From positions 186,001-250,000 of the forward strand of contig NZ_CP041348.1 in assembly GCF_009834365.1 (NCBI RefSeq): DNA of 64,000 bases, in the 5' to 3' direction. The position numbers and the translations under genes were made by a program. A model generated the notes under the pieces. It was not told the DNA's origin, did not search any database, and saw only the letters and a list, made by a program, of their open reading frames with translations. Positions 5,072 to 61,418 of this stretch are shown one piece after another. Source of the stretch: Komagataeibacter xylinus. Lineage in GTDB: Bacteria; Pseudomonadota; Alphaproteobacteria; Acetobacterales; Acetobacteraceae. Each line of letters opens with the position of its first letter. Within the stretch, counting starts at the first letter, position 1.

Positions 5072-7494
5072 GATCCCTCTCCCGGATTGAGCATCTCCAC
5101 CGCCCACTCAACACCTTTGTGCATTAGCCATGCCGCCGCGAACCCGTCGCGCCCATGCCGGGCAAAGATCCGGTCGATGGCGGCCTGGTCGGCGGGCGAG
5201 GACGCGGCGGTGAAGGCCAGCGCCACCTCGGACAGGCCGAGATCGAACAGCCGGTTGCCCCGCCGGGACTGGCAGTAATAATCGCGCTTGGGTGTCGCCC
5301 GGCTGAGGATCTCGATCTGGCGATCGTTCAACCCGAAGCGGCGATAGATCGCGGCGATCTGCGGCTCCAGCGCCCGGTCATTGGGCAGGAACACCCGCGT
5401 CGGGCAGCTCTCGATCAGCGCGGGGGCGATCGGGCTGGCATCGATATCGGCCAGCGACTGGGTGGCGAAGATGACGGAAGCGTTCTTCTTGCGCAGCGTC
5501 TTCAGCCATTCCCGCAACTGCCCGGCAAAGGCGCGATCGTCCAGCGCCAGCCAGCCCTCATCGATGATCAGCAGCGTCGGGCTGCCGTCAAACCGGTCCT
5601 CGATACGATGGAACAGATAGGACAGCACGGTGGACGCGGCACCCGAGCCGATCAGCCCCTCGATTTCGAAGGACTGGATATCGGCGACGCCCAGCCGCTC
5701 ATGCTCGGCGTCGAGCAGGCTACCCCACGGCCCGCCGACACAATAAGGCTGCAACGCCTGTTTCAGCGCCAGCGACTGGAGCAGCGCCGACAGGCCGGTG
5801 AGGGTGCGTTCCGCAACCGGGGCCGAGGCCAGCGAGGTCAGCGCCGACCACAGATGCTCCTTGAGATCGGGCGCGACAGTGATCCCCTCGCGCTCCAGTA
5901 ATGTCGCGACCCATTCCGCCGCCCAGGCCCGTTCGCCTGGCTCGTCGATGCGCGCCAGCGGCTGCAACGCGACGGGTTCGTTCCCGTCCTGCGCCAGCGC
6001 GCCGCCGAGATCGTGCCAGTCGCCGCCCATCGCAAGCGTTGCCGCGCGGATCGAGCCACCGAAATCGAAGGCGAAGATCTGCGCCCCGGCATAGCGACGA
6101 AACTGCATCGCCATGAAGGCCAGCAGCACCGACTTGCCGGCACCGGTCGGCCCGGCGATCAGCGTGTGGCCAACATCGCCGACGTGGAGTGCAAAGCGGA
6201 ACGGCGTAGAACCCTCGGTACGGGCATAAAATAACGGCGGGGCGGCAAAGTGCCCGTCCCGCTCCGGTCCGGCCCACACCGCAGAGAGCGGGATCATGTG
6301 CGCGAGGTTCAGGGTGGAGACGCAGGGCTGGCGGACATTGGCGTAGACATGGCCCGGCAGGCTGCCGAACCAGGCTTCGAGTGCGTTCACCGTCTCGCGC
6401 ATGCAGGTGAAATCGCGGCCCTGGATGGTCTTCTCCACCAGACGCAGCCGATCGGCGGCGACCGCCGGATCCTCGTCCCACACCGTGACGGTGGCGGTGA
6501 CATAGGCCTGCCCGACCTGATCGGTGCCGAGTTCCTGCAACGCCGCATCGGCATCGGCGGCCTTGTTGGCGGCATCGGAATCCAGCAGCACCGACGCCTC
6601 GTTGGTCATCACCTCCTTGAGGATGGCCATGATCGATTTGCGCTTGGCGAACCATTGCCGCCGGATCTTGCCCAGCGCTCTGGTCGCGTCAGTGCGGTCG
6701 AGACAGATCGCCCGCGTCGACCAGCGATAGGGAAAGGCCAGCCGGTTCAGCTCGTCCAGCAGCCCCGGCCAGGTCTGGGTGGGAAAGCCGGTAATTGTGA
6801 GCGTGCGCAAATGGGCGTCACCCAGGCGCGGCTCCAGCCCGCCGGTCAGTTCCTCGTCCACCAGGATGGCATCGAGGTGCATCGGGATTTCTGGCACCCG
6901 GACCCGCTGCAGGCGGGTGGAGATGCAGGAGTGGAGATAGGTCAGGGTTTCGCCGTCATCGGGCCAGTCGGCTTCCGGCATGAAGCCGTCGAGTAGCGCC
7001 AGCACCCGGTCGGTCTGATCAATGAATCCCGCGACCACGGCCTGCCAGTCGGAGCCGCCACGGGCGCGGTTCTCGTAGAGCCAGGCCTCCGCGCGGGCGG
7101 CGTCGTCCGCCGGTGGCAGCCAGACCAGGGTGAGGAAATAGCGGCTCTCGTAATGGGCACCCTCTTCCTCGAACTGCGCCCGACGCTCGGCGTCGACCAG
7201 TTCGGAGGCCGGATCGGGGAACGGGCTGGAAGGATAGCCCCGCGCTTGTCGGCGCTGCGCCTCCACGAAAATGGCCCAGCCGGAGCCGAGCCGCCGTAGG
7301 GCGTTGTTCAGGCGGGACGTGATCGCGACCAGTTCGGATGCGGTCGAGGAGTCCAGGTCCGGACCGCGAAAGCGCGCGGTGCGCTGGAAGGCGCCATCCT
7401 TGTTCAGCACCACGCCTCTGGCGACCAGCGCCGCCCAGGGCAGAAAATCGGCGAGACGGTCGCGACGATGGCGGTATTCGGCAAGGTTCATCAT
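5068..7494 (-). CDS. trbE: TrbE/VirB4-family conjugal transfer ATPase
   Basis: The product is an 808-residue VirB4 (CagE/TrbE) ATPase that powers pilus assembly and substrate transfer at the inner-membrane base of the channel. The N-terminal domain begins MNLAEYRHRRDRLADFLPW. Walker A, GPTGAGKS, is near residue 450 and Walker B, LLIIDEGWLAL, near residue 640, followed by LREWLKTLRKKNASVIFATQS. The length is normal. I start it at the first of two consecutive ATG codons at 7494, 7 bases past the trbD stop; the frame extends 41 codons upstream but that part overlaps trbD. All catalytic motifs are intact. Confidence 0.95.
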   Translation of the reverse strand: MMNLAEYRHRRDRLADFLPWAALVARGVVLNKDGAFQRTARFRGPDLDSSTASELVAITSRLNNALRRLGSGWAIFVEAQRRQARGYPSSPFPDPASELVDAERRAQFEEEGAHYESRYFLTLVWLPPADDAARAEAWLYENRARGGSDWQAVVAGFIDQTDRVLALLDGFMPEADWPDDGETLTYLHSCISTRLQRVRVPEIPMHLDAILVDEELTGGLEPRLGDAHLRTLTITGFPTQTWPGLLDELNRLAFPYRWSTRAICLDRTDATRALGKIRRQWFAKRKSIMAILKEVMTNEASVLLDSDAANKAADADAALQELGTDQVGQAYVTATVTVWDEDPAVAADRLRLVEKTIQGRDFTCMRETVNALEAWFGSLPGHVYANVRQPCVSTLNLAHMIPLSAVWAGPERDGHFAAPPLFYARTEGSTPFRFALHVGDVGHTLIAGPTGAGKSVLLAFMAMQFRRYAGAQIFAFDFGGSIRAATLAMGGDWHDLGGALAQDGNEPVALQPLARIDEPGERAWAAEWVATLLEREGITVAPDLKEHLWSALTSLASAPVAERTLTGLSALLQSLALKQALQPYCVGGPWGSLLDAEHERLGVADIQSFEIEGLIGSGAASTVLSYLFHRIEDRFDGSPTLLIIDEGWLALDDRAFAGQLREWLKTLRKKNASVIFATQSLADIDASPIAPALIESCPTRVFLPNDRALEPQIAAIYRRFGLNDRQIEILSRATPKRDYYCQSRRGNRLFDLGLSEVALAFTAASSPADQAAIDRIFARHGRDGFAAAWLMHKGVEWAVEMLNPGEGS

Positions 7495-9477: not shown

Positions 9478-10125
9478 TCATCCGAACGGACGCGGCTCTT
9501 CGACACAAGCAAGCACGCCATCCGGCAGCGGCCGCTGAAGGCACAGAGCCTCTACTGCCGGCGCGTTCATCCATACATCCAGTTCGTCCGGCTGCGTCAG
9601 GATCACTGGCATGGCCTTCGGATGGACCGCTCCTACGTCCCGGTTGGCGTCGGTGGTCAGAAACCCGAACAGGTCATCCGTCGTCTCTCCATCAGCCAGT
9701 TTCCGCACTGACGTCCAACGACACCAGATCCCGGCAAAGAAGGCCAATGGCTCTCCGTCGCTGCGGGCAAACCACACCGGCCGCGATTTCCCGTCGGGCA
9801 GACGCTCCGGTTCCGAGAAGGCGGTCAGCGGCACCAGACAGCGATGGGCAACACCTTCCCAGCACTTCCACCATGTCGAGGTCGGATTGCGGATGTTGGT
9901 GACACCACGATCGACCTTGTGCCCCCTGAGATAACCGGGCGGTGTCGGCATGCCCCAGCGCGCCATGACCAGTTCGCGACCATTGTCGCCATTCCGCACG
10001 ACCGGTGCCATCGTATTCGGCCAGATCTCGGGCAACGGCTGAAGATTGCCTGTGCGATCCTCAAGGACTTTCGCGATCTCCCTGATCGCCTGCGGGTTGG
10101 AGGTCATGGAATAGAGATTGCACAT
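9478..10125 (-). CDS. SRAP-family peptidase / abasic-site DNA crosslinking protein (YedK/HMCES-like)
   Basis: The product is 215 residues and belongs to the SOS-response-associated peptidase family. These proteins use Cys2 to form a covalent thiazolidine link with abasic sites in single-stranded DNA, shielding them from error-prone processing. Seen here: Met1-Cys2 at the start (MCNLYSMTSN), the RNP substrate segment in NIRNPTSTWW, the PLTAFSEPE segment and the late catalytic histidine in VHPKAMPVIL. It lies 13 bases downstream of the UvrD-type helicase gene on the same strand, so the two are probably co-transcribed from the LexA-controlled divergent region near 12.3 kb. Length is normal and all key residues are present. 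Confidence 0.92.
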   Translation of the reverse strand: MCNLYSMTSNPQAIREIAKVLEDRTGNLQPLPEIWPNTMAPVVRNGDNGRELVMARWGMPTPPGYLRGHKVDRGVTNIRNPTSTWWKCWEGVAHRCLVPLTAFSEPERLPDGKSRPVWFARSDGEPLAFFAGIWCRWTSVRKLADGETTDDLFGFLTTDANRDVGAVHPKAMPVILTQPDELDVWMNAPAVEALCLQRPLPDGVLACVEEPRPFG

Positions 10126-12397: not shown

Positions 12398-13177
12398 ATG
12401 ACTGCTGAAACCCATAAAAAACCCGGTCTGGAGACGCTGCAGGCGGCGATCAACCGTCTCGAAGGGCACAGCGACCGACGCCGCACGGTGCTGCCCTTTG
12501 GTGTGTGCGAGATCGACAGCCGCCTGCCCGGTGGCGGGCTGGCTCTGGGCGCGCTGCATGAAGTGGCAGGCGGAGGCAACGACGCCCTTCACAGTGCGGC
12601 CGCCGGTCAGTTCTGCGCCGGAATTGCAGCCCGCACGCCCGGCAAGGTGCTCTGGATTGTCACCCGTCAGGACGTATTCGCTCCCTCCCTGAAACAGGTG
12701 GGGCTGTCGGCACGGCGAACGATCTTTGTCGAAGCCTGTTCGGACGTCGATGTGCTGGCCTGTTTCGAGGAAGGGCTGCGACATGGCGGCCTCGGGGCCG
12801 TTGTGGCCGAGGTGGCGCGTCTGTCCATGACGGCCTCACGCCGCCTGCAACTGGCGGCCGAAACGTCTGGTTCGCTTGGCATCGCGATCCGCCGCTGGCG
12901 GCGGCAGACCGACGCGGCGGATTTCGGCCAGCCGACCGCCAGTGTGACCCGCTGGCGGGTCTCCGTCCTGCCGTCCGTGTCGTTGCCGGTTCCCGGTGTG
13001 GGAAGACCGCGCTGGTTGCTGGAACTGATCCGCGCCCGTGCGGGCGAATGTGCCGATTTTGAAGTGGAGGCCTGTGATGGCAAAGGGAGACTGGCACCGG
13101 GTCGTCTCTCTTTACCTGCCGCTCTGGCCGACGGATCGGATCAGGAAGCGGCTGGGCAAAGACGCGCCAGCGCCTGA
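12398..13177 (+). CDS. imuA: ImuA, SOS mutasome RecA-like accessory protein
   Basis: The product is about 259 residues. ImuA works with ImuB and DnaE2 in damage-induced translesion synthesis in bacteria lacking UmuDC. The RecA-like core is degenerate: FGVCEIDSRLPGGGLALGALHEVAG near the N-terminus, with no canonical Walker A, as is typical of ImuA. The C-terminus has the [21 protein letters not shown] segment seen at the end of ImuA proteins. The first ATG of the frame is at 12398; a TTG 30 bases upstream is possible. It overlaps imuB by about 100 bases in another frame, so translation is coupled. It is the first gene under the LexA-box promoter. Confidence 0.88.
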   Translation: MTAETHKKPGLETLQAAINRLEGHSDRRRTVLPFGVCEIDSRLPGGGLALGALHEVAGGGNDALHSAAAGQFCAGIAARTPGKVLWIVTRQDVFAPSLKQVGLSARRTIFVEACSDVDVLACFEEGLRHGGLGAVVAEVARLSMTASRRLQLAAETSGSLGIAIRRWRRQTDAADFGQPTASVTRWRVSVLPSVSLPVPGVGRPRWLLELIRARAGECADFEVEACDGKGRLAPGRLSLPAALADGSDQEAAGQRRASA

Positions 13178-46121: not shown

Positions 46122-46582
46122 GACACCGCCCTCCGGCGCAGCCAGGCCTGATGGCGGTCGCGCGTGTAGGAGCGTGCCGCCTGCCCGGAGAGCATCCGAT
46201 TGTGCAGATGCCGCCAATGCTCGGGCGCCACGTCGACGGGGTCGATGCCGATAGCTTCGATACGATCGACAGCTTCGAGCACCAGACGGACCTTCGGCCA
46301 ACCGCTCTGGCGCAACAGGCTCTCCCCGCCGGGGCGCACGAACGGCACCGTCTGATACGGCTCGCCGGGACGGGTGACGCGCACGATGTCGATGCAGGAC
46401 ACCACCGTGCCGTAATCGTTCGCTGCCCAGCGCAGGAAGGCGAATACGGTGTCCGGCGGAAAGCTCAGTATCCGCCGACGACGATCGAGAATCTGCTCAT
46501 GGGCGACAGAGCCGAAGCGGATCCAGTGCTCGATGCGCTTCTCGATCCAGGTCAGTTCGACATGAGCGAGGGTGTCGGTCAT
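46118..46582 (-). CDS. DUF2840 protein
   Basis: The product is 154 residues, starting MTDTLAHVELTWIEKRIEHWIRFG, with RRRILSFPPDTVFAFLRWAANDYGT, typical of DUF2840, a family of unknown function that lies next to traF in these conjugative elements. ATG 46582 overlaps the RHH gene stop. It is likely part of a long leftward transcript starting above repA. Confidence 0.86.
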   Translation of the reverse strand: MTDTLAHVELTWIEKRIEHWIRFGSVAHEQILDRRRRILSFPPDTVFAFLRWAANDYGTVVSCIDIVRVTRPGEPYQTVPFVRPGGESLLRQSGWPKVRLVLEAVDRIEAIGIDPVDVAPEHWRHLHNRMLSGQAARSYTRDRHQAWLRRRAVS

Positions 46583-46821
46583 GGCACATCTCCAGCAGTA
46601 TCGGGGAACTCGCGGGCCAGCAGCGCGCGCAGCATGTCGGCGACCGTGATGCCGCGCTGGAACGCCGCGACCTTGAGCCGCGCGCGCAGCGCCGGCGTGA
46701 CGTCGATGGTCAGCCGGGCGGTAAAGCGGTTGATGGTCGAAGGCTTGTCCGGCGCCCTGACCCAGCGTTCGGGATCGGCGGGACGCGCCGCGAAGCCGGG
46801 CGGCGTGCGACGTTCCGTCAT
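46579..46821 (-). CDS. Ribbon-helix-helix protein of the replication/partition cluster
   Basis: The product is 80 residues. The C-terminal half INRFTARLTIDVTPALRARLKVAAFQRGITVADMLRALLAREF is a ribbon-helix-helix fold. It overlaps the methyltransferase gene on one side and the DUF2840 gene on the other (both ATGA). Such genes beside parA often serve as the centromere-binding partner of partition or as a regulator. Function inferred from position. Confidence 0.8.
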   Translation of the reverse strand: MTERRTPPGFAARPADPERWVRAPDKPSTINRFTARLTIDVTPALRARLKVAAFQRGITVADMLRALLAREFPDTAGDVP

Positions 46822-47561
46822 GGCGAAATTCCTTCGCCGAGCGGCAGCACGGAGGCGATGCGGTCGCGCGCCTTTTGCGCCATGACTGGATCGATCTCGC
46901 AGCCGACATAGCGCCGACCGGCGAGCCGGCAGGCGACACCGGCCGCGCCCGAGCCGGCGAACCAGTCACCCACCAGGCCACCTGGTGGGCAGCTCGTGCG
47001 GATCAGGATCTCCAGCAGTGCCACCGGCTTCTCGGTGGGATGGATGGCGCGCCCATGCGCATTGCGGACCGGAATCACGGAGCGCATCAGGCGCGGGCCG
47101 CCATCCTCGCTCACGTAATGGCCGGCATCGATCCGGCCCATGTGGGGCGGCCGGTGTCTCCGCCTTACCGTGCGCGCCCGCGCATCGGACGTGGTGGGAA
47201 CAACATTGTAGACGGCGCGCCAGGGCGTATCGTCGCGATAGAACTGGACGATCAGTTCATGCACGCGGCGGAAGCGATCGGCATGGAAGCTGGAACCGTT
47301 CTGCTTCTCCCAGACCAGTTCCTGAGCATATTTCCAGCCCGCATTCCGAAATGCCGCGTTGGATGCGAGAAAGCTCCGCAGGGAGCCGAAGACCCAGAGC
47401 GAGCCGCTCGGTTTCAGGGCGGCGAGTGCCTTGCCGGGCCAGTCCGCCACGCGCCGGTCCCAGGCGAGCGACGTATCGCCATAGGGCGGGTCGACCAGGA
47501 TCATGTCGTAGGGGCCGTGCCAGGGCATCAGGAGCGCGCTGTCGCCGGTCAGGAGGGTCAT
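46818..47561 (-). CDS. Solitary DNA methyltransferase (DPPY motif)
   Basis: The product is 247 residues. MILVDPPYGDTSLAWDRR holds the catalytic DPPY motif near residue 20, and VGDWFAGSGAAGVACRLAGRRYVGCEID near 205 is the AdoMet-binding FxGxG region. This motif order (catalytic first) is that of the beta class of N6-adenine or N4-cytosine methylases. No restriction gene adjoins, so it may be an orphan methylase for self-protection or regulation. It overlaps parA upstream and the RHH gene downstream. Confidence 0.88.
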   Translation of the reverse strand: MTLLTGDSALLMPWHGPYDMILVDPPYGDTSLAWDRRVADWPGKALAALKPSGSLWVFGSLRSFLASNAAFRNAGWKYAQELVWEKQNGSSFHADRFRRVHELIVQFYRDDTPWRAVYNVVPTTSDARARTVRRRHRPPHMGRIDAGHYVSEDGGPRLMRSVIPVRNAHGRAIHPTEKPVALLEILIRTSCPPGGLVGDWFAGSGAAGVACRLAGRRYVGCEIDPVMAQKARDRIASVLPLGEGISP

Positions 47562-48196
47562 GGCACCAGCCCCCCGATCTCGGCCGTCAGGGCGGCGATT
47601 TCGCGGGCGGCAATCCCGTGCGGGCGCAGGTCGCAGACCAGGCGGCCGGTGCGCGCGGCGTCGGCGAAAGCAACCCGCTGGCCGATCCGCGCCGCTAGAG
47701 CGGCAGGCTCATGCCCCATCAGCGCCAGCCGGGTTTCGCGGGCGATGACCGTGCGCGCGGCGCAGCGGTTGAGCACGAAGCGGGCCAGCAGGCCGGGACG
47801 GAAGAAGCGCGCGTCCTCCAGCAGCCGCAGCATCTCGGCCGAAGCCCATCCGTCGAACGGCGAAGGCTGCGCGGGAATCAGCACCAGGTCGGCAGCCAGC
47901 AGAGCGGAGCGCAATAATGCCGCCACCCGAGGCGGACCGTCGATGACGACGTGATCCACCCCCTGAGCTAGTTGGGGCGCCTCGTGGTGGAGTGTGTCGC
48001 GTGCCAGCCCGATCACGCCGAACAGCCGGGGCAGTCCTTCCCGCGCGCGCTGCGCCGACCAGTCCAGCGCCGAACCCTGCGGATCGGCGTCGATGACCGT
48101 CACGCGCTGGCCTTCCCGAGCCCATTGGCCGGCGAGATGCAGCGCCAGAGTCGTCTTGCCGACGCCGCCCTTCTGGTTGAGGAAAGCCACGATCAT
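47558..48196 (-). CDS. parA: ParA-family partition ATPase
   Basis: The product is 212 residues. The deviant Walker A, LNQKGGVGKTTLALHLAG, is at about residue 6-23, followed by VIDADPQGSALDWSAQR and VVIDGPPRVAALLRSAL. This compact form (no N-terminal HTH) is the ParA type found with small RHH partners. ATG 48196 overlaps the repA stop (ATGA). It drives plasmid segregation, with the RHH protein at 46579-46821 as a possible partner. Confidence 0.92.
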   Translation of the reverse strand: MIVAFLNQKGGVGKTTLALHLAGQWAREGQRVTVIDADPQGSALDWSAQRAREGLPRLFGVIGLARDTLHHEAPQLAQGVDHVVIDGPPRVAALLRSALLAADLVLIPAQPSPFDGWASAEMLRLLEDARFFRPGLLARFVLNRCAARTVIARETRLALMGHEPAALAARIGQRVAFADAARTGRLVCDLRPHGIAAREIAALTAEIGGLVP

Positions 48197-49248
48197 GGCC
48201 CCTCTCCGGGGGTTTTCCACGGATCGGCAGGGGGGCCAACATCCTTAAAGTTAGACTCTTTTAAGTTAGAATCTAAGTTAAGGGCGTCGTAACCAATTGA
48301 TTCAATGTCATGATTCGGCGTTTTCCGCAAACGATAGCACGGATGCCGTGGCAGTGATGGCACGGATAAATCCACAACTGATAGCACGGATGAACTCACA
48401 GCTTGTCCACAGACGCCTGTGGATAATTTGACAGGTGCAAAGGCCAGCGTGTCATTGCCGTTGCGGTCGGGACGCACCGACAGCCGATAGCCGGCAAAGG
48501 GCTGCCGCTTCGCCATGTCGCGCAGTTCGAAGGCAAAGCGCCGATAGGGGGAAAGACTGGCGGATTTTTCGTAGAGATGGCGCAGGCCGAAGGCCCAGCC
48601 CGCACGCTGGCGACCGCCATGCTTGCGCACGATGCGATAGAGCCAGCGCTCCAGACCGCCGGTGAGGCCAAAATAGGCCGGGTCGATGGTCAGCACGAGC
48701 GCGTCATCGAGAACCGCCTGGTAGAACCAGTCGGGCAGGATCAGTTCGATCACGCGGGTGCGCCCTTCCCGCGCGGTATGCCGTTTCCATTCGTTGATCC
48801 AGGAAAAGCGGTGCAGTTGCCCCTTGCCGGTCTGCCGCAGCGACGTCTTGATCGTGGTGGATTGCAGCCGGTCGAAGGCCGCTTCCAGCCGCTCATAGTC
48901 CCGCGCGCTGTCGCCCCGACCGATGAAGGTCAGGATCTCGCGCGGGCTGGCCACCATCAGCCGCGACGTGCGCCGACCGGCGTCACGCGCGGCAACGAGA
49001 TGGCTGGCGGCCCAGATCAGCACGTCAGCATCCCAGATCGTGGCCATGCCATGTTCGGCAGACGCCTCGACCCGGATGGTGACGTCCGGGGTCCGGTAAT
49101 CGATCGGGACCATGCGGGGGGATTTGGCGAGGCTGAAGAACGGAAACGCCATCAGATCCTGTGCGTCACGAGGAGCGAAATCTCCCGCGATAGCGTGGAA
49201 GAGTTCCAGTTGCTCGCGCTCGGAGCGCGCCCTGCCGGGCGGAGGCAT
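48193..49248 (-). CDS. repA: RepA, replication initiator protein A
   Basis: The product is 351 residues of the RPA family of replication initiators. The N-terminal to middle region contains MAFPFFSLAKSPRMVPIDYRTPDVTIRVEAS, ATIWDADVLIWAASHL and YFGLTGGLERWLYRIVRKHGG, winged-helix parts typical of the family. The last 80 residues are low in conserved features, and the DNA beneath them contains iteron-like repeats, DnaA boxes and an AT-rich repeat array. ATG 49248 overlaps the HTH gene stop. The C-terminal coding region thus doubles as a probable origin. Confidence 0.9.
   Translation of the reverse strand: MPPPGRARSEREQLELFHAIAGDFAPRDAQDLMAFPFFSLAKSPRMVPIDYRTPDVTIRVEASAEHGMATIWDADVLIWAASHLVAARDAGRRTSRLMVASPREILTFIGRGDSARDYERLEAAFDRLQSTTIKTSLRQTGKGQLHRFSWINEWKRHTAREGRTRVIELILPDWFYQAVLDDALVLTIDPAYFGLTGGLERWLYRIVRKHGGRQRAGWAFGLRHLYEKSASLSPYRRFAFELRDMAKRQPFAGYRLSVRPDRNGNDTLAFAPVKLSTGVCGQAVSSSVLSVVDLSVPSLPRHPCYRLRKTPNHDIESIGYDALNLDSNLKESNFKDVGPPADPWKTPGEGP
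48245..48283. repeat. AT-rich direct repeats, candidate DNA-unwinding element
   Basis: TTAAAGTTAGACTC (48245-48258), TTTAAGTTAGAATC (48260-48273) and TAAGTTAAG (48274-48282) are three tandem related units with a 15-base period. They are strikingly AT-rich in a GC-rich gene, as in unwinding elements of iteron plasmids. Confidence 0.6.
48332..48391. repeat. Three iteron-like repeats in the 3' end of repA
   Basis: The 13-base unit (T/C)GAT(A/G)GCACGGAT occurs at 48332-48344, 48355-48367 and 48379-48391, spaced 23 and 24 bases, close to two helical turns. They are likely RepA-binding iterons. Confidence 0.7.
48403..48426. promoter_or_regulatory. Inverted pair of DnaA boxes
   Basis: TTGTCCACA at 48403-48411 (one mismatch) and, on the other strand, TTATCCACA at 48418-48426 (perfect) face each other across 6 bases. 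Together with the adjoining iterons they indicate a replication origin. Confidence 0.68.
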
Positions 49249-49532
49249 CAGCGACGGCTCCCGCGTGATGTCGGCGGAATCAGCGGACTTTGCCGCGCGG
49301 CCGCCGGCACGACGCCGGCAGTGGTGTCCGAGGTATGGGCGCGGGCACCACTCTCGACCCAGGCCTGCAACTCATCCACCCGATAGACCACGCGGCCACC
49401 GAGCTTCGAGTAGCGCGGTCCGGTGCCGTAGATCCGGTGTTTCTCCAGTGTGCGAATAGATAGTCCGACGAAGCGCGAGGCGTCGGGCGTGCGCAGATAG
49501 CGCGGCGGCAGATCGCTGTAATTGGCGGACAT
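49248..49532 (-). CDS. AlpA/excisionase-like helix-turn-helix protein upstream of repA
   Basis: The product is 94 residues. LPPRYLRTPDASRFVGLSIRTLEKHRIYGTGPRYSKLGGRVVYRVDELQAWVESG is a MerR/AlpA-type winged helix. It is the first gene of the leftward rep-par-tra unit, and its stop overlaps the repA start. It probably regulates that unit. The upstream gap holds a strong 12-base inverted repeat at 49619-49652 which could be its operator. Confidence 0.85.
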   Translation of the reverse strand: MSANYSDLPPRYLRTPDASRFVGLSIRTLEKHRIYGTGPRYSKLGGRVVYRVDELQAWVESGARAHTSDTTAGVVPAAARQSPLIPPTSRGSRR

Positions 49533-49618
49533 GAGGTGGCTCCGTGGTCGCTGGCTGGGGCCGCGGGACAGATGCGGCCAGCAGGGATCAGCGTGGCGGA
49601 GCGAGGTCTTCCGGGACT

Positions 49619-49652
49619 AGGACCGATCTCATCGGGGGGCGAGATCGGTCCT
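49619..49652. promoter_or_regulatory. Perfect 12-base inverted repeat upstream of the rep operon
   Basis: AGGACCGATCTC and GAGATCGGTCCT flank a 10-base G-rich loop. It sits 87 bases upstream of the HTH-repA unit. It could be an operator for the HTH protein or a hairpin in the leader. A further perfect 9-base inverted repeat (GGCCCCATG/CATGGGGCC) lies at 49868-49901. Apart from these, 49533-50194 shows no gene. Confidence 0.55.
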
Positions 49653-50194
49653 TGACTGGCGGGAGATGGCGACGCGGCCGCCTCGAACCGGGCGACCGAA
49701 CCAACTGGATTTCGGCTTTCGCCCTCGTCCCAATCATACAAAGTTCTGCTGAAGGTTTCGGTAAGCGGACATCATGCTGCGATGACACGAGCCAGTCTGC
49801 CAGTTTCTGAACCATAACCCATGCCATATGGTCTGCTCTCAGCAAATTGCGAACTTAGCCCATGCCGGGCCCCATGACCCAGTAGCCAAGGACATGGGGC
49901 CTGGACCGCTTACTGCATCGTGTCGCCGTCCGGTTCAGCCAACAGAGAAAGAAAGCCGGGTTCAACAGTGGGGCAGCGGTCTACAGTCCATACGTTCTGG
50001 GACGTTGGGATGTCGGTCCTCACAAGACGATCACGCCATTGCAGCAGTCAACGTTGTGTTGGCTGGTCTGTCTTCTCGGGTTGCATCGACCTCACGACCT
50101 GACTACCCTGCAAGCACCATTGCCGCGTCGGGCCACAATACGACGAAACCTTATTGAGCGTGCTTACTACCTAGAGAGGTTTCGAAAAAACGCC

Positions 50195-51649
50195 ATGAAC
50201 TTTGCGACTTATCGGTCGCAGTGGGCTTATAACCCGCTGCGCGAAGTGCTGGCCGGAATGGTCGGCACCTTCGCCCTCATTCCCGAGGTCATTGCTTTCT
50301 CCTACGTTGCCGGCGTCTCTCCCGCCGTCTCCCTTTTCGCGTCATTTGTCATTAGCGTCGCCATTTCCATCACCGGTGGCCGCCCGGGAATGATCTCAGG
50401 GGCGGCGGGTTCCGTGGCCCTCGTAGCCGCGGCCCTCGTGCATAGCTACGGGCTTCAATACCTTCTCGTCGCGACATTACTGGCTGGCGGACTACAGATC
50501 ATTTTCGGTGCGCTTGGCTTTCAGGTCATTATGCGCTTCGTATCGGCTGAGGTCCGCACCGGCTTTGTGAATGCTCTCGCGATCCTGATCTTTTCGGCAC
50601 AGTTACCACAAATGCTTCATGTGACGTGGCACACGTATGCACTGATTGCCCTTGGGCTTGCCATCATCTATCTCATGCCACGGATATCAACCCTGATACC
50701 GTCGCCCCTGATCTGTATCGTAGTTCTGACAGGCATCACGATGTGGTATCCAATGCCGGTGCACACTGTCTCTGATCTGGGCACGCTGCCGACAGGCCTT
50801 CCTGCTTTTACGATCCCCCACGTACCATTCAATCTGGCCACACTGAAAATTGTGTTTCCCTATGCCCTTGCGATGGCATCTGTGGGCCTCCTTGAATCTC
50901 TAATGACAGCAGGTGTCGTGGATGATGAGACCGACACGCACGGTGATCCCAGAATGGAATGCGTAGGTCTTGGTGTCTCGAATGTGTTTGTAGGACTGTT
51001 CGGCGGCATCGCCGGGTGCGGTATGGTAGGGCAGACAGTCGGCAATCTTCGGTACGGCGGCCAAGGACGTCTGTCGACCTTTACTGCCGGCGCTTTCCTG
51101 CTGTTTCTGATGGTCATGCTGCATACTTATGTCGCCCGCATTCCAATGGCTGCCCTTGTCGCCATTATGTGCATGGTCTCAATCAGCACATTCTCGTGGT
51201 CATCCCTGCGTGATCTTGCGCGTTTTCCAAAGCTCTCAAGCCTCGTCATGGTCGTAACCGTTGCCGTGACTGTCGCATCCTCGGATCTGGCTCTAGGTGT
51301 GCTCGTCGGTGTTCTGCTCAGTGGTGTGTTCTTTGCCTGGTCTATGACGCATTTGATGCACGTCAAAAAGATCAGAGAAGAGGGTACGGATATCTACGAG
51401 GTTGAGGGACAGGTTTTCTTTGCTTCGTCTGACCTTCTTCACGATCAGATCGACTTCAGGACCAATGCGCGCCGGGTCGTCATCAGGCTGAACAACGCCC
51501 ATTTCTGGGACGTGACCTCGGTGGCTATGATTGAGAAGATCGTATCCAAACTCAAGGCTCGCGACATTGAAGTTGAAATCGAGGGCTTGCATGCGCTCCG
51601 GCATGGCATCGTCATGCGGTTGACCAGTGAAAAGCTCCTGACCACCTGA
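50195..51649 (+). CDS. SulP-family anion transporter with STAS domain
   Basis: The product is 484 residues. About 10-12 membrane segments begin REVLAGMVGTFALIPEVIAFSYVAGVSPAV, the SulP signature, and GGRPGMISGAAGSVALVAAAL follows. The C-terminal STAS domain starts near residue 390 (EVEGQVFFASSDLLHDQIDF) and ends at residue 484. SulP proteins move sulfate, bicarbonate or similar anions; the substrate is not evident. ATG 50195 begins at family sequence, while a 52-codon upstream extension does not resemble it. It is opposite in direction to the backbone and forms an insertion between the HTH gene and the DUF2285 gene. Confidence 0.88.
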   Translation: MNFATYRSQWAYNPLREVLAGMVGTFALIPEVIAFSYVAGVSPAVSLFASFVISVAISITGGRPGMISGAAGSVALVAAALVHSYGLQYLLVATLLAGGLQIIFGALGFQVIMRFVSAEVRTGFVNALAILIFSAQLPQMLHVTWHTYALIALGLAIIYLMPRISTLIPSPLICIVVLTGITMWYPMPVHTVSDLGTLPTGLPAFTIPHVPFNLATLKIVFPYALAMASVGLLESLMTAGVVDDETDTHGDPRMECVGLGVSNVFVGLFGGIAGCGMVGQTVGNLRYGGQGRLSTFTAGAFLLFLMVMLHTYVARIPMAALVAIMCMVSISTFSWSSLRDLARFPKLSSLVMVVTVAVTVASSDLALGVLVGVLLSGVFFAWSMTHLMHVKKIREEGTDIYEVEGQVFFASSDLLHDQIDFRTNARRVVIRLNNAHFWDVTSVAMIEKIVSKLKARDIEVEIEGLHALRHGIVMRLTSEKLLTT

Positions 51650-60197: not shown

Positions 60198-61418
60198 TTA
60201 TGCTGCCTGCCCAATGACGACCCCTCCCAGCGCGCTGATACCGACTACCACCAGGGGTGGCGCCCGCCAGACGGTCAGCAGGACGAAACCGACCAGCACG
60301 ATCCCGAAATCCGCCGCCGACCTGACCGCGCTCGTCCAGACCGGTGTATAGAGCGCCGCCCCCAGCAGGCCCACGACCGCTGCGTTGACGCCGCGCATCG
60401 TCGCCTGAACGGCCCGCTGGCTGCGGAAGGTGTCCCAGAAGGGCAAAGCTCCGATCAGGACCAGGATGCCCGGCAGAAAGATGCCGAAAAGACCGAAAGC
60501 GGCACCGGCAACACCGTGGGGAGATTGCCCGACGACCGCGCCGAGATAGGCCGCGAACGTGAAAAGCGGCCCCGGAACCGCCTGTGCCGCGCCATAACCG
60601 GCGAGAAAGGTGTCGTCGCTGACCCAGCCCGATGTCACGAAAGCCTCGTGCAGCAAGGGCAGCACGACATGACCGCCACCGAACACGAGCGCGCCTGACC
60701 GGTAGAAGGCGTCGAACAGGGAAACGCCCTCTGGTGCGCCATGGCGGGCGAGAACGGGCAGACCGAAGAGCAACGCCAGAAAGAGAGCCAGTGCGACGAT
60801 CCCTGCACGATGCGATACGGGCACTGTAATATGCTCGCCATCTGACGTCTGCACAGAGCGGCAAAGCCACAAGCCGGCGAGGCCCCCGAGAACGATGGCC
60901 GCGATCTGGGCAAGCGGTGAGATGGCGAACAGAACGATGAGCGCGGCCGTGACCGCGATCGAAGCTCGCGTCCGGTCCGGACACAGCGTGCGCGCCATGC
61001 CCCATACGGCCTGTGCGACGATGGCGACGGCGACGAGTTTCAGTCCATGCAGAAGGCCTGCACCAGTCGGGCCGGCAAGCGCGTTCGCGCCATAGGCGAA
61101 GAGGACCAGTATAAGTGCCGAAGGCAGGGTGAACCCCGCCCACGCCGCAAAACCGCCTGCATAACCGGCCCGCATCAGGCCAATGGAAAATCCCACCTGG
61201 CTGCTCGCGGGACCGGGCAGGAACTGACACAGCCCGACGAGATCGGCATAGGCGCGCTCATTGAGCCACCGGCGTCGGACGACGAATTCGTCCCGGAAAT
61301 ACCCGATATGCGCGATCGGCCCGCCGAAGCAGGTGACGCCCAGCCTGAGAAAGATGAGGAGCACCTCAAGAGCCGACCCCGGTCTTTCTGGTCCCACGCC
61401 ACGCGGCACGATCGTCAT
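60198..61418 (-). CDS. chrA: ChrA-type chromate transporter
   Basis: The product is 406 residues with two CHR domains and about 10 membrane segments. The N-terminal domain shows FLRLGVTCFGGPIAHIGYFRDEFVVRRRWLNE and LCQFLPGPASSQVGFSIGLMRAG; the second shows SGALVFGGGHVVLPLLHEAFV and GYGAAQAVPGPLFTFAAYLG. Proteins of this form expel chromate. A large frame on the same strand in another register (60112-61230) is a shadow. Intact. It opens the metal/redox block at the right end. Confidence 0.92.
   Translation of the reverse strand: MTIVPRGVGPERPGSALEVLLIFLRLGVTCFGGPIAHIGYFRDEFVVRRRWLNERAYADLVGLCQFLPGPASSQVGFSIGLMRAGYAGGFAAWAGFTLPSALILVLFAYGANALAGPTGAGLLHGLKLVAVAIVAQAVWGMARTLCPDRTRASIAVTAALIVLFAISPLAQIAAIVLGGLAGLWLCRSVQTSDGEHITVPVSHRAGIVALALFLALLFGLPVLARHGAPEGVSLFDAFYRSGALVFGGGHVVLPLLHEAFVTSGWVSDDTFLAGYGAAQAVPGPLFTFAAYLGAVVGQSPHGVAGAAFGLFGIFLPGILVLIGALPFWDTFRSQRAVQATMRGVNAAVVGLLGAALYTPVWTSAVRSAADFGIVLVGFVLLTVWRAPPLVVVGISALGGVVIGQAA

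Follow-up and report, generated by a model that had tools for sequence, protein, structure and literature searches.

A candidate replication origin within the 3' coding end of a PF10134-type repA gene in Komagataeibacter xylinus

The repA gene described here raises the question of what the repeats in its 3' end are for: whether they form the origin at which RepA acts, and whether it is the DNA or the coded protein that is under selection. The gene lies in a 64,000 nt stretch of Komagataeibacter xylinus DNA (the window, whose positions are used throughout) and the features discussed are listed in Table 1. RepA matches PF10134 with E=3.6e-85. A sequence search of the PDB gave no matches, but comparison of the AlphaFold model with the PDB using Foldseek gave RctB domains 2-3 (E 5.9e-9) and RepE54 (E 3.3e-3). 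The mean pLDDT is 60, so the structural model is only moderate; it gives RepA, the probable cognate initiator, a winged-helix Rep fold. The pLDDT is below 50 over residues 274-351 (block values of 27-46 in the tail) and the tail has no confident predicted fold.

The repA stop (TGA, 48193-48195) overlaps the parA start (ATG, 48194-48196) in the sequence ATGA. With a PF10134 initiator and a single neighbouring ParA, this is not a repABC operon, in which repA, repB and repC are found together and repC is the initiator. There is a DNA methylase gene (PF01555) at 46818-47561, between parA and the small ribbon-helix-helix gene; at this position pGDIPal5II has no annotated gene, and a small gene, hypothetical or ParB-like, is found in other relatives.

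Table 1. Features of the repA region and their positions in the window
Feature	Position	Strand	Basis or remark
repA, 351 aa, PF10134 (RPA) replication initiator	48193..49248	-	Profile match
Conserved RPA domain, residues 27-256	48481..49170	-	PF10134 match; codon-position variability
RepA tail, residues 274-351, coding over candidate origin	48196..48429	-	AlphaFold, codon analysis
DnaA box, perfect, TTATCCACA	48418-48426	-	Motif scan
DnaA box TTGTCCACA, 1 mismatch, facing perfect box	48403-48411	+	Motif scan
Iteron 1 (first in repA order), TGATAGCACGGAT	48379-48391	+	Coded V-L-S
Iteron 2, 24 bases on, same reading frame as iteron 1	48355-48367	+	Coded V-P-S
Iteron 3, 23 bases on, other reading frame	48332-48344	+	Coded C-Y-R
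AT-rich CTAACTTA-type repeats, 15-base period, coded LNLDSNLKESNF	48247..48282	-	Probable unwinding element
Distal DnaA-like box TTTTCCACG, 2 mismatches	48213-48221	+	Motif scan
parA, partition ATPase	47558..48196	-	NF041546, E=6.7e-78
Ribbon-helix-helix gene	46579-46821		Profile match
Small HTH_17 gene upstream of repA, ending at repA start	49248..49532	-	PF12728, ORF list

Arrangement of motifs at the 3' end of repA

Read in the direction of the gene, the motifs at 48213-48426 start with a facing pair of DnaA boxes; then come the three 13-base iterons, the AT-rich repeats of 15 bases and, most distally, a degenerate DnaA-like box. All of them are within the final 78 codons. The iterons have no more than one mismatch among them and, because they are spaced 24 then 23 bases apart, the third is coded in a different frame (C-Y), so that one iteron word is read as VLS or VPS in one frame and as CYR in the other. 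The imperfect member of the facing pair reads TGTGGACAA in the coding sense and lies at -24 from iteron 1. There are three more DnaA-like boxes with two mismatches each (48368-48376, 48321-48329 and 48213-48221). The AT-rich repeats at 48242-48256 and 48257-48271 are 80% alike, with a partial third copy visible by eye, and the AT fraction is 0.66 in 48240-48310 in comparison with 0.35 in 48427-49248.

All the pieces listed in the original prediction were found where it had placed them, AT repeats to DnaA box (48242-48426) spanning 185 bases, and they are composed and ordered like an iteron origin, as it had proposed. The window contains the direct repeats near rep, the DnaA boxes and the adjoining AT-rich stretch that mark an iteron-type theta origin. 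That these motifs came together by chance in a GC-rich gene tail is so improbable as to be negligible: lone DnaA-like boxes with at most one mismatch are no commoner in the 64 kb than expected (6 matches vs 5.06), but a triple of 13-mers (at most one mismatch, within 75 bases) arose in 0 of 100 dinucleotide shuffles of 48196-49248, facing DnaA boxes arose in 0 of 2000 shuffles of 48196-48440, and the triple is conserved in 132 of 138 loci.

Constraint on the DNA and on the coded tail

For the codon analysis, 80 loci were taken from genome records, among the matches listed (at least 598 stretches). Seventy-nine were readable; L025 was left out, having no RepA by the rule used, and L054 lacked an anchor motif. 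The codon set comprised 66 of the 80 aligned rows, seven having been removed as at least 97% alike and seven close Acetobacteraceae rows having been set apart. Among these matches, the codons GGA 291, GTG 296, TGC 304 and GAA 307 are fixed in 66 of 66 rows, and many iteron and AT-repeat codons are nearly invariant at synonymous sites. In windows of five codons placed over the iterons, DnaA box and AT repeats, synonymous identity is 0.87-1.00, where 0.51-0.65 is expected. This excess (motif z 5.1-5.4) was reached by 0 of 222 windows in the RPA domain, and two linker windows had none (z -0.6 and -0.5).

The diversity at codon positions 1, 2 and 3 is 0.098, 0.064 and 0.403 in the RPA domain, position 3 being about five times as variable as the other two, and 0.470, 0.497 and 0.502 in linker 310-319. 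Expressed as third against first and second positions, the ratio is 4.98 for the RPA domain, 1.04 for the linker and 0.26 for iteron 3. It exceeds 1 in iterons 1 and 2 (2.84 and 2.43) and in the AT repeats (about 2); few sites vary there, so the ratio alone shows constraint on the DNA only for iteron 3 and the DnaA codons. For residues 336-351, which align poorly, it is 1.09. Past the AT repeats, synonymous identity is mostly raised over residues 334-345 (the EERARDVENL stretch of long-tailed RepAs, 66 rows), perhaps reflecting the distal DnaA-like box, which is present there in many relatives.

The repeated motifs of the tail (VLSGT, VPSGT, CYQEP and LESN) might instead belong to a genuine protein module and be conserved as protein. 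These motifs look conserved in protein alignments and in 91 of 100 loci the RepA frame runs through the array without a stop. However, the synonymous sites are frozen, iteron 3 repeats the iteron DNA word in a different frame, the linkers evolve equally at all three codon positions, blocks of the tail have a pLDDT of only 27-46 and some relatives have a RepA without the tail, all of which makes a protein module highly improbable. Taken together, the comparisons indicate that selection acts on the DNA (the motifs, the 24/23 spacing and the distance to the AT repeats) rather than on linker residues within the tail.

The original prediction had named this comparison as a check, and it is borne out: the DNA motifs are conserved and the linker residues vary. 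Its suggestion that the tail is a by-product stands in part. The tail residues do look like a by-product, since the linker drifts and there is no confident fold; on the other hand, the open reading frame across the array seems to be kept, even where RepA stops earlier.

Embedded and split forms of the array

We classified 100 loci, including L095, which is the window again, and L005-L007, which share the RepA of the window. In 91 the array is embedded (the RepA frame is open through it) and in nine it is split from the gene (RepA stops before it). There are 20 split relatives with a verified RepA stop, 15 of the 16 read in detail and five more (L115 was excluded). As RepA stops just before the same array in these relatives, the origin need not be made of RepA codons. 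The 16 split loci keep the AT motifs and the iterons at 24/23 (23/23 in L101). Among the split loci scanned for DnaA-like boxes, there is one at -24 in L088 and L113, only at -13 in L104 and only at other places in L087 and L114, with none at the usual places in L091.

Between the PGY motif and iteron 1 the embedded loci have a distance divisible by 3; in the nine split loci classified, division by 3 leaves a remainder of 2. In the split loci the frame used by embedded tails is nevertheless open across the array, with a stop overlapping the ATG of the next gene, in 12 of 12 annotated cases. These represent five tree lineages (beta/gamma; L104; L091 and L112; L088, L110 and L111; L101). Shuffle probabilities of the open frame are 0.013-0.12 per locus, the value of 1.000 for L109, whose frame met no stop, being uninformative. 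The frames of L105 and L115 also end in ATGATC; L096 and L109 are outside the 12/12 count. In L106 (pENT-1f0b) an annotated 'hypothetical protein' at 2349-2603 is the open frame across the array between repA and parA.

Nine of the 14 annotated split RepA stops read GTGA or ATGA, as if overlapping a start, and the remaining five, all beta/gamma, read ATAA; in L096 and five later split loci the stop reads GTGA. Of the 86 embedded frames that close, 80 do so with ATGA or GTGA, and annotation shows the following gene to overlap by 4 bases in embedded L004, L098, L099, L100, L102, L103 and L108. The parA start, ATG ATC, itself supplies the TGA, so overlap alone is no proof of coupling; as far as sequence can tell, the open frame is the stronger sign. 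In the AT region of split loci L088, L091, L104 and L112, short inverted repeats (such as AGGAATCC TTC GGATTCCT), a possible hairpin, are visible by eye between CTAAC motifs; they are absent from embedded forms.

Trees of the RPA domain were built from thinned sets of 70, 65 and 59 rows, without L115. Two changes between the embedded and split states are needed on one tree and three on another, the latter rooted on L122, which the program marked as a long branch. AU tests do not reject a tree with all embedded loci in one clade (p 0.465) or one with all split loci in one clade (p 0.355), and the outgroups L086, L089, L090, L092 and L093 are too distant to root the trees (branches up to 10) and do not fall on one side. 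The original prediction held that the coding sequence had become the origin. This does not follow from the data, as the array lies after a verified RepA stop in 20 relatives and the trees leave the order unsettled. The converse idea, that the embedded form was derived from an intergenic one, gained no support, as RepAs at 41-59% domain identity are also embedded (L121, L122, L141, L143-L147, L149 and L150). In the far relative L086 the origin-like array is wholly after the repA stop.

The spacing is widely kept. Among the matches listed, 79 of 79 readable genome-record loci are embedded and 78 are at 24/23, the exception being L011. In a search of 138 loci, near-duplicates included, that accepted any repeat sequence and 121 spacing pairs, the best triple was exactly 24/23 in 132 and 23/23 in two; four had none. 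The same search found 0 of 138 inside the RPA domain and six of 132 testable in the downstream stretch, none of them 24/23. An AT motif (one of a set) follows iteron 3 in 131 of 132 loci. In a separate search, 31 loci (L121, L122 and 29 from a family search) were scanned for any triple repeat with 12-mers and spacings of 18-28 each. Triples were found in 29 of these, 28 at 24/23 and one at 23/23, with 24 embedded and five after the RepA stop; within the 31, there was none in L131, whose iterons are degraded as in L011, or in L152, where the frame departs from RepA after the domain. A 13-mer search (at most two mismatches to the first copy) missed L122, which the 12-mer search (at most three) found with six mismatches in total.

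The family search gave 43 places, 12 of which were left out of the array reading; such a RepA was found in 27 of 150 family genomes with an E value of 1e-60 or better. The window-type iteron pattern itself is present in four of 385 genomes spread over the class and had no matches in viral contigs, and pattern scans of 4 and 39 genomes gave one match each, already known, and no new loci. Of the 13 window-type loci scanned, nine have the -24 DnaA box (at most two mismatches; absent from L087, L091, L104 and L114) and 10 have the distal box at +155 to +167 (at most two mismatches; absent from L015, L091 and L104). In L011 and L131, a Gluconacetobacter tumulisoli-type element, iterons 2 and 3 are degraded and shifted with the DnaA boxes and AT repeats kept. 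The module can therefore decay, and these arrays may be decaying origins or may reflect a different RepA specificity. Distant RPA-type RepAs have other layouts: 21/21 triples after the stop in L086 and L093, a 24/22 triple 536 bases after the RepA stop in L123, and no triple repeat near the RPA-type repA in L089, L090, L092 and L124.

The contig of the window (C1) has three trbE relatives and further RepAs at C1:784475 (L121, 50% identity) and C1:3434864 (L122, 39%); more distant RepAs of this genome are on C3 and C4. Both L121 and L122 have embedded arrays at 24/23 with different iteron words, and by eye there are DnaA boxes before and AT repeats after each array. Iteron sequences thus vary between lineages, even among three elements of one genome, and the spacing is constant. 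Three RPA-type RepAs (L120 at C1:234196, L121 and L122) share this contig of at least 3.4 Mb, each with its own embedded iterons, apparently three compatible replicon specificities. Among the matches listed, a RepA identical to that of the window over 351 aa is found in contigs of Novacetimonas hansenii, Acetobacter conturbans and Acetobacter musti (L005, L006 and L007), which is a recent spread among acetic acid bacteria.

The candidate origin and known systems

In type Ib ParA systems, repeats are often located just upstream of parA and are bound by a small ribbon-helix-helix partner. The array could accordingly be a centromere (parS) for the adjoining ParA: it lies directly before parA, and there is a ribbon-helix-helix gene in the window (46579-46821). 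It does not depend on an adjoining parA, however. When the gene adjoining repA was considered, nine loci had the array with DUF2840 after repA: L091, L098, L099, L103, L104 and L112 (24/23), L101 (23/23), L100, where the array copies are degenerate (20 of 24), and L121, where the next gene was read by eye. A centromere is therefore very unlikely.

Iteron arrays that solely control copy number exist in other plasmids, and the array might in the same way (inc-type) bind RepA for autoregulation or copy control only, with replication starting elsewhere. The cumulative GC skew of pGDIPal5II gives the array no support as an origin, its extremes lying at 13063 and 16605 of the locus and the array near 9790. 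Against the inc-type reading, there are DnaA-like boxes and AT-rich repeats at near-fixed distances from the iterons, and the mapped origin of pSN1216-29, in the part of the source available, needs equivalent parts (PMC6232296). Nor is there support for the stretch 49533-49900, named in the original prediction as a possible site for another origin: there are no direct repeats in 49500-50150, only two inverted repeats, and here the DNA match to pGDIPal5II is continuous only up to 49659. We regard copy control alone as unlikely.

The best explanation is that 48213-48426 is probably the vegetative origin (oriV) of a plasmid-type replicon within a conjugative element of the chromosome. We infer that RepA, as a winged-helix initiator, would bind the three iterons and DnaA the flanking boxes, that the AT-rich repeats would melt, and that the excised circle would start replication at this site. 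The frame would be kept open most likely so that translation passes from repA into the next gene (parA) with no untranslated gap. The split relatives suggest that the part of RepA coded by the origin would be dispensable. Many of the compared loci are in chromosomes or large plasmids, and these may replicate without using the array. The circular Gluconacetobacter diazotrophicus plasmid pGDIPal5II (16.6 kb) has the same module with a RepA 95.4% identical, and its 21 listed features include no second replication gene, in a gene table that is possibly incomplete.

More speculatively, this may be a 'translated origin', in which an open frame across the origin is selected, whether as an extension of RepA or as a small ORF of its own before the next gene. 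Ribosomes would cross from repA to parA, and RepA/DnaA occupancy and parA expression would compete; this competition would act as a switch between replication and maintenance of the excised element. With its split and fused forms, the array offers a natural experiment on one DNA stretch as both origin and coding frame. With a 214-base candidate origin in many alphaproteobacterial elements, the idea that repA/parA-bearing ICEs are plasmid replicators is now testable and, as co-resident elements differ in their iterons within a fixed 24/23 architecture, replicon compatibility groups should be predictable from sequence.

The surrounding genes resemble those of Tn4371-like ICEs, whose repA-parA module lies beside relaxase and traG/trb genes. 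The window has repA-parA, relaxase, T4CP and a trbE relative (5089-7494) on a contig of at least 3.4 Mb, and the nearness of the repA-parA, relaxase, T4CP and trb genes suggests that they form one element. Genes for a chromate transporter and a sulfate permease (60198-61418 and 50039-51649) near the replication/transfer module are probably cargo or flanking genes. As far as the accessible text of PMC2789088 goes, RepA of these ICEs is related to the RepA proteins of pVS1 and pMLb, repA may have a part in replication, Rep and Par are proposed as a stabilisation system and the word oriV does not appear. pMLb (L099) has the embedded array. The beta/gamma relatives have the split form (the L115 RepA stop excepted), in contrast with the embedded form here. 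Among the open-licence PMC papers listed by our searches, none was found to place an origin within repA, either in PF10134 replicons or in Tn4371-like ICEs; this includes PMC2789088, PMC4489591, PMC3516476, PMC3832669, PMC8905914 and PMC12147919 in the parts available. Kinship with IncW was ruled out: the initiator of the broad-host-range plasmid R388 is also named RepA but belongs to PF04796.

The pSN1216-29 mini-replicon requires iterons, DnaA boxes and an AT-rich part, according to the available part of PMC6232296. L086 resembles it, with the iteron sequence given there, its parts in the same succession (a pair of TGTGGA boxes at -22 and -10, then iterons, one more DnaA box and an AT-rich region) and an initiator of 413 aa that belongs to PF10134, as does RepA of the window. 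It differs from the present array in that the origin of pSN1216-29 is wholly after the repA stop, has no coding overlap and has four 15-base iterons (PMC6232296), and in that the iteron spacing of L086 is 21/21 where measured, not 24/23. In pPDL2 the oriV is reported upstream of repA in the part of PMC3516476 seen, which differs from the embedded array and is a point against a shared layout in distant RPA-type RepAs.

Overlap of origin motifs with the coding sequence of the initiator has parallels in other families, so far as the sections available to us describe them. In pSK41 (RepA_N) the origin is inside rep and the protein part that it codes is a linker described as dispensable for replication (PMC5703833); the initiator belongs to another Pfam family, the hosts are staphylococci and the origin is in the middle of rep and not at its 3' end. 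The repABC plasmid p42d is alphaproteobacterial and has its oriV within the initiator gene repC, where silent mutations of the AT-rich part abolish replication, but repC has neither iterons nor DnaA boxes and is a different initiator (PMC3155836). The same source calls an oriV in the initiator gene 'uncommon but not exceptional', naming pAD1, pSX267, pAMbeta1, pLS32, pSK1 and pSK41. Origins inside rep genes (pSK41, pAD1 and the repABC plasmids) are thus already known and, with respect to the parts of these sources available, the version in a PF10134 repA is new.
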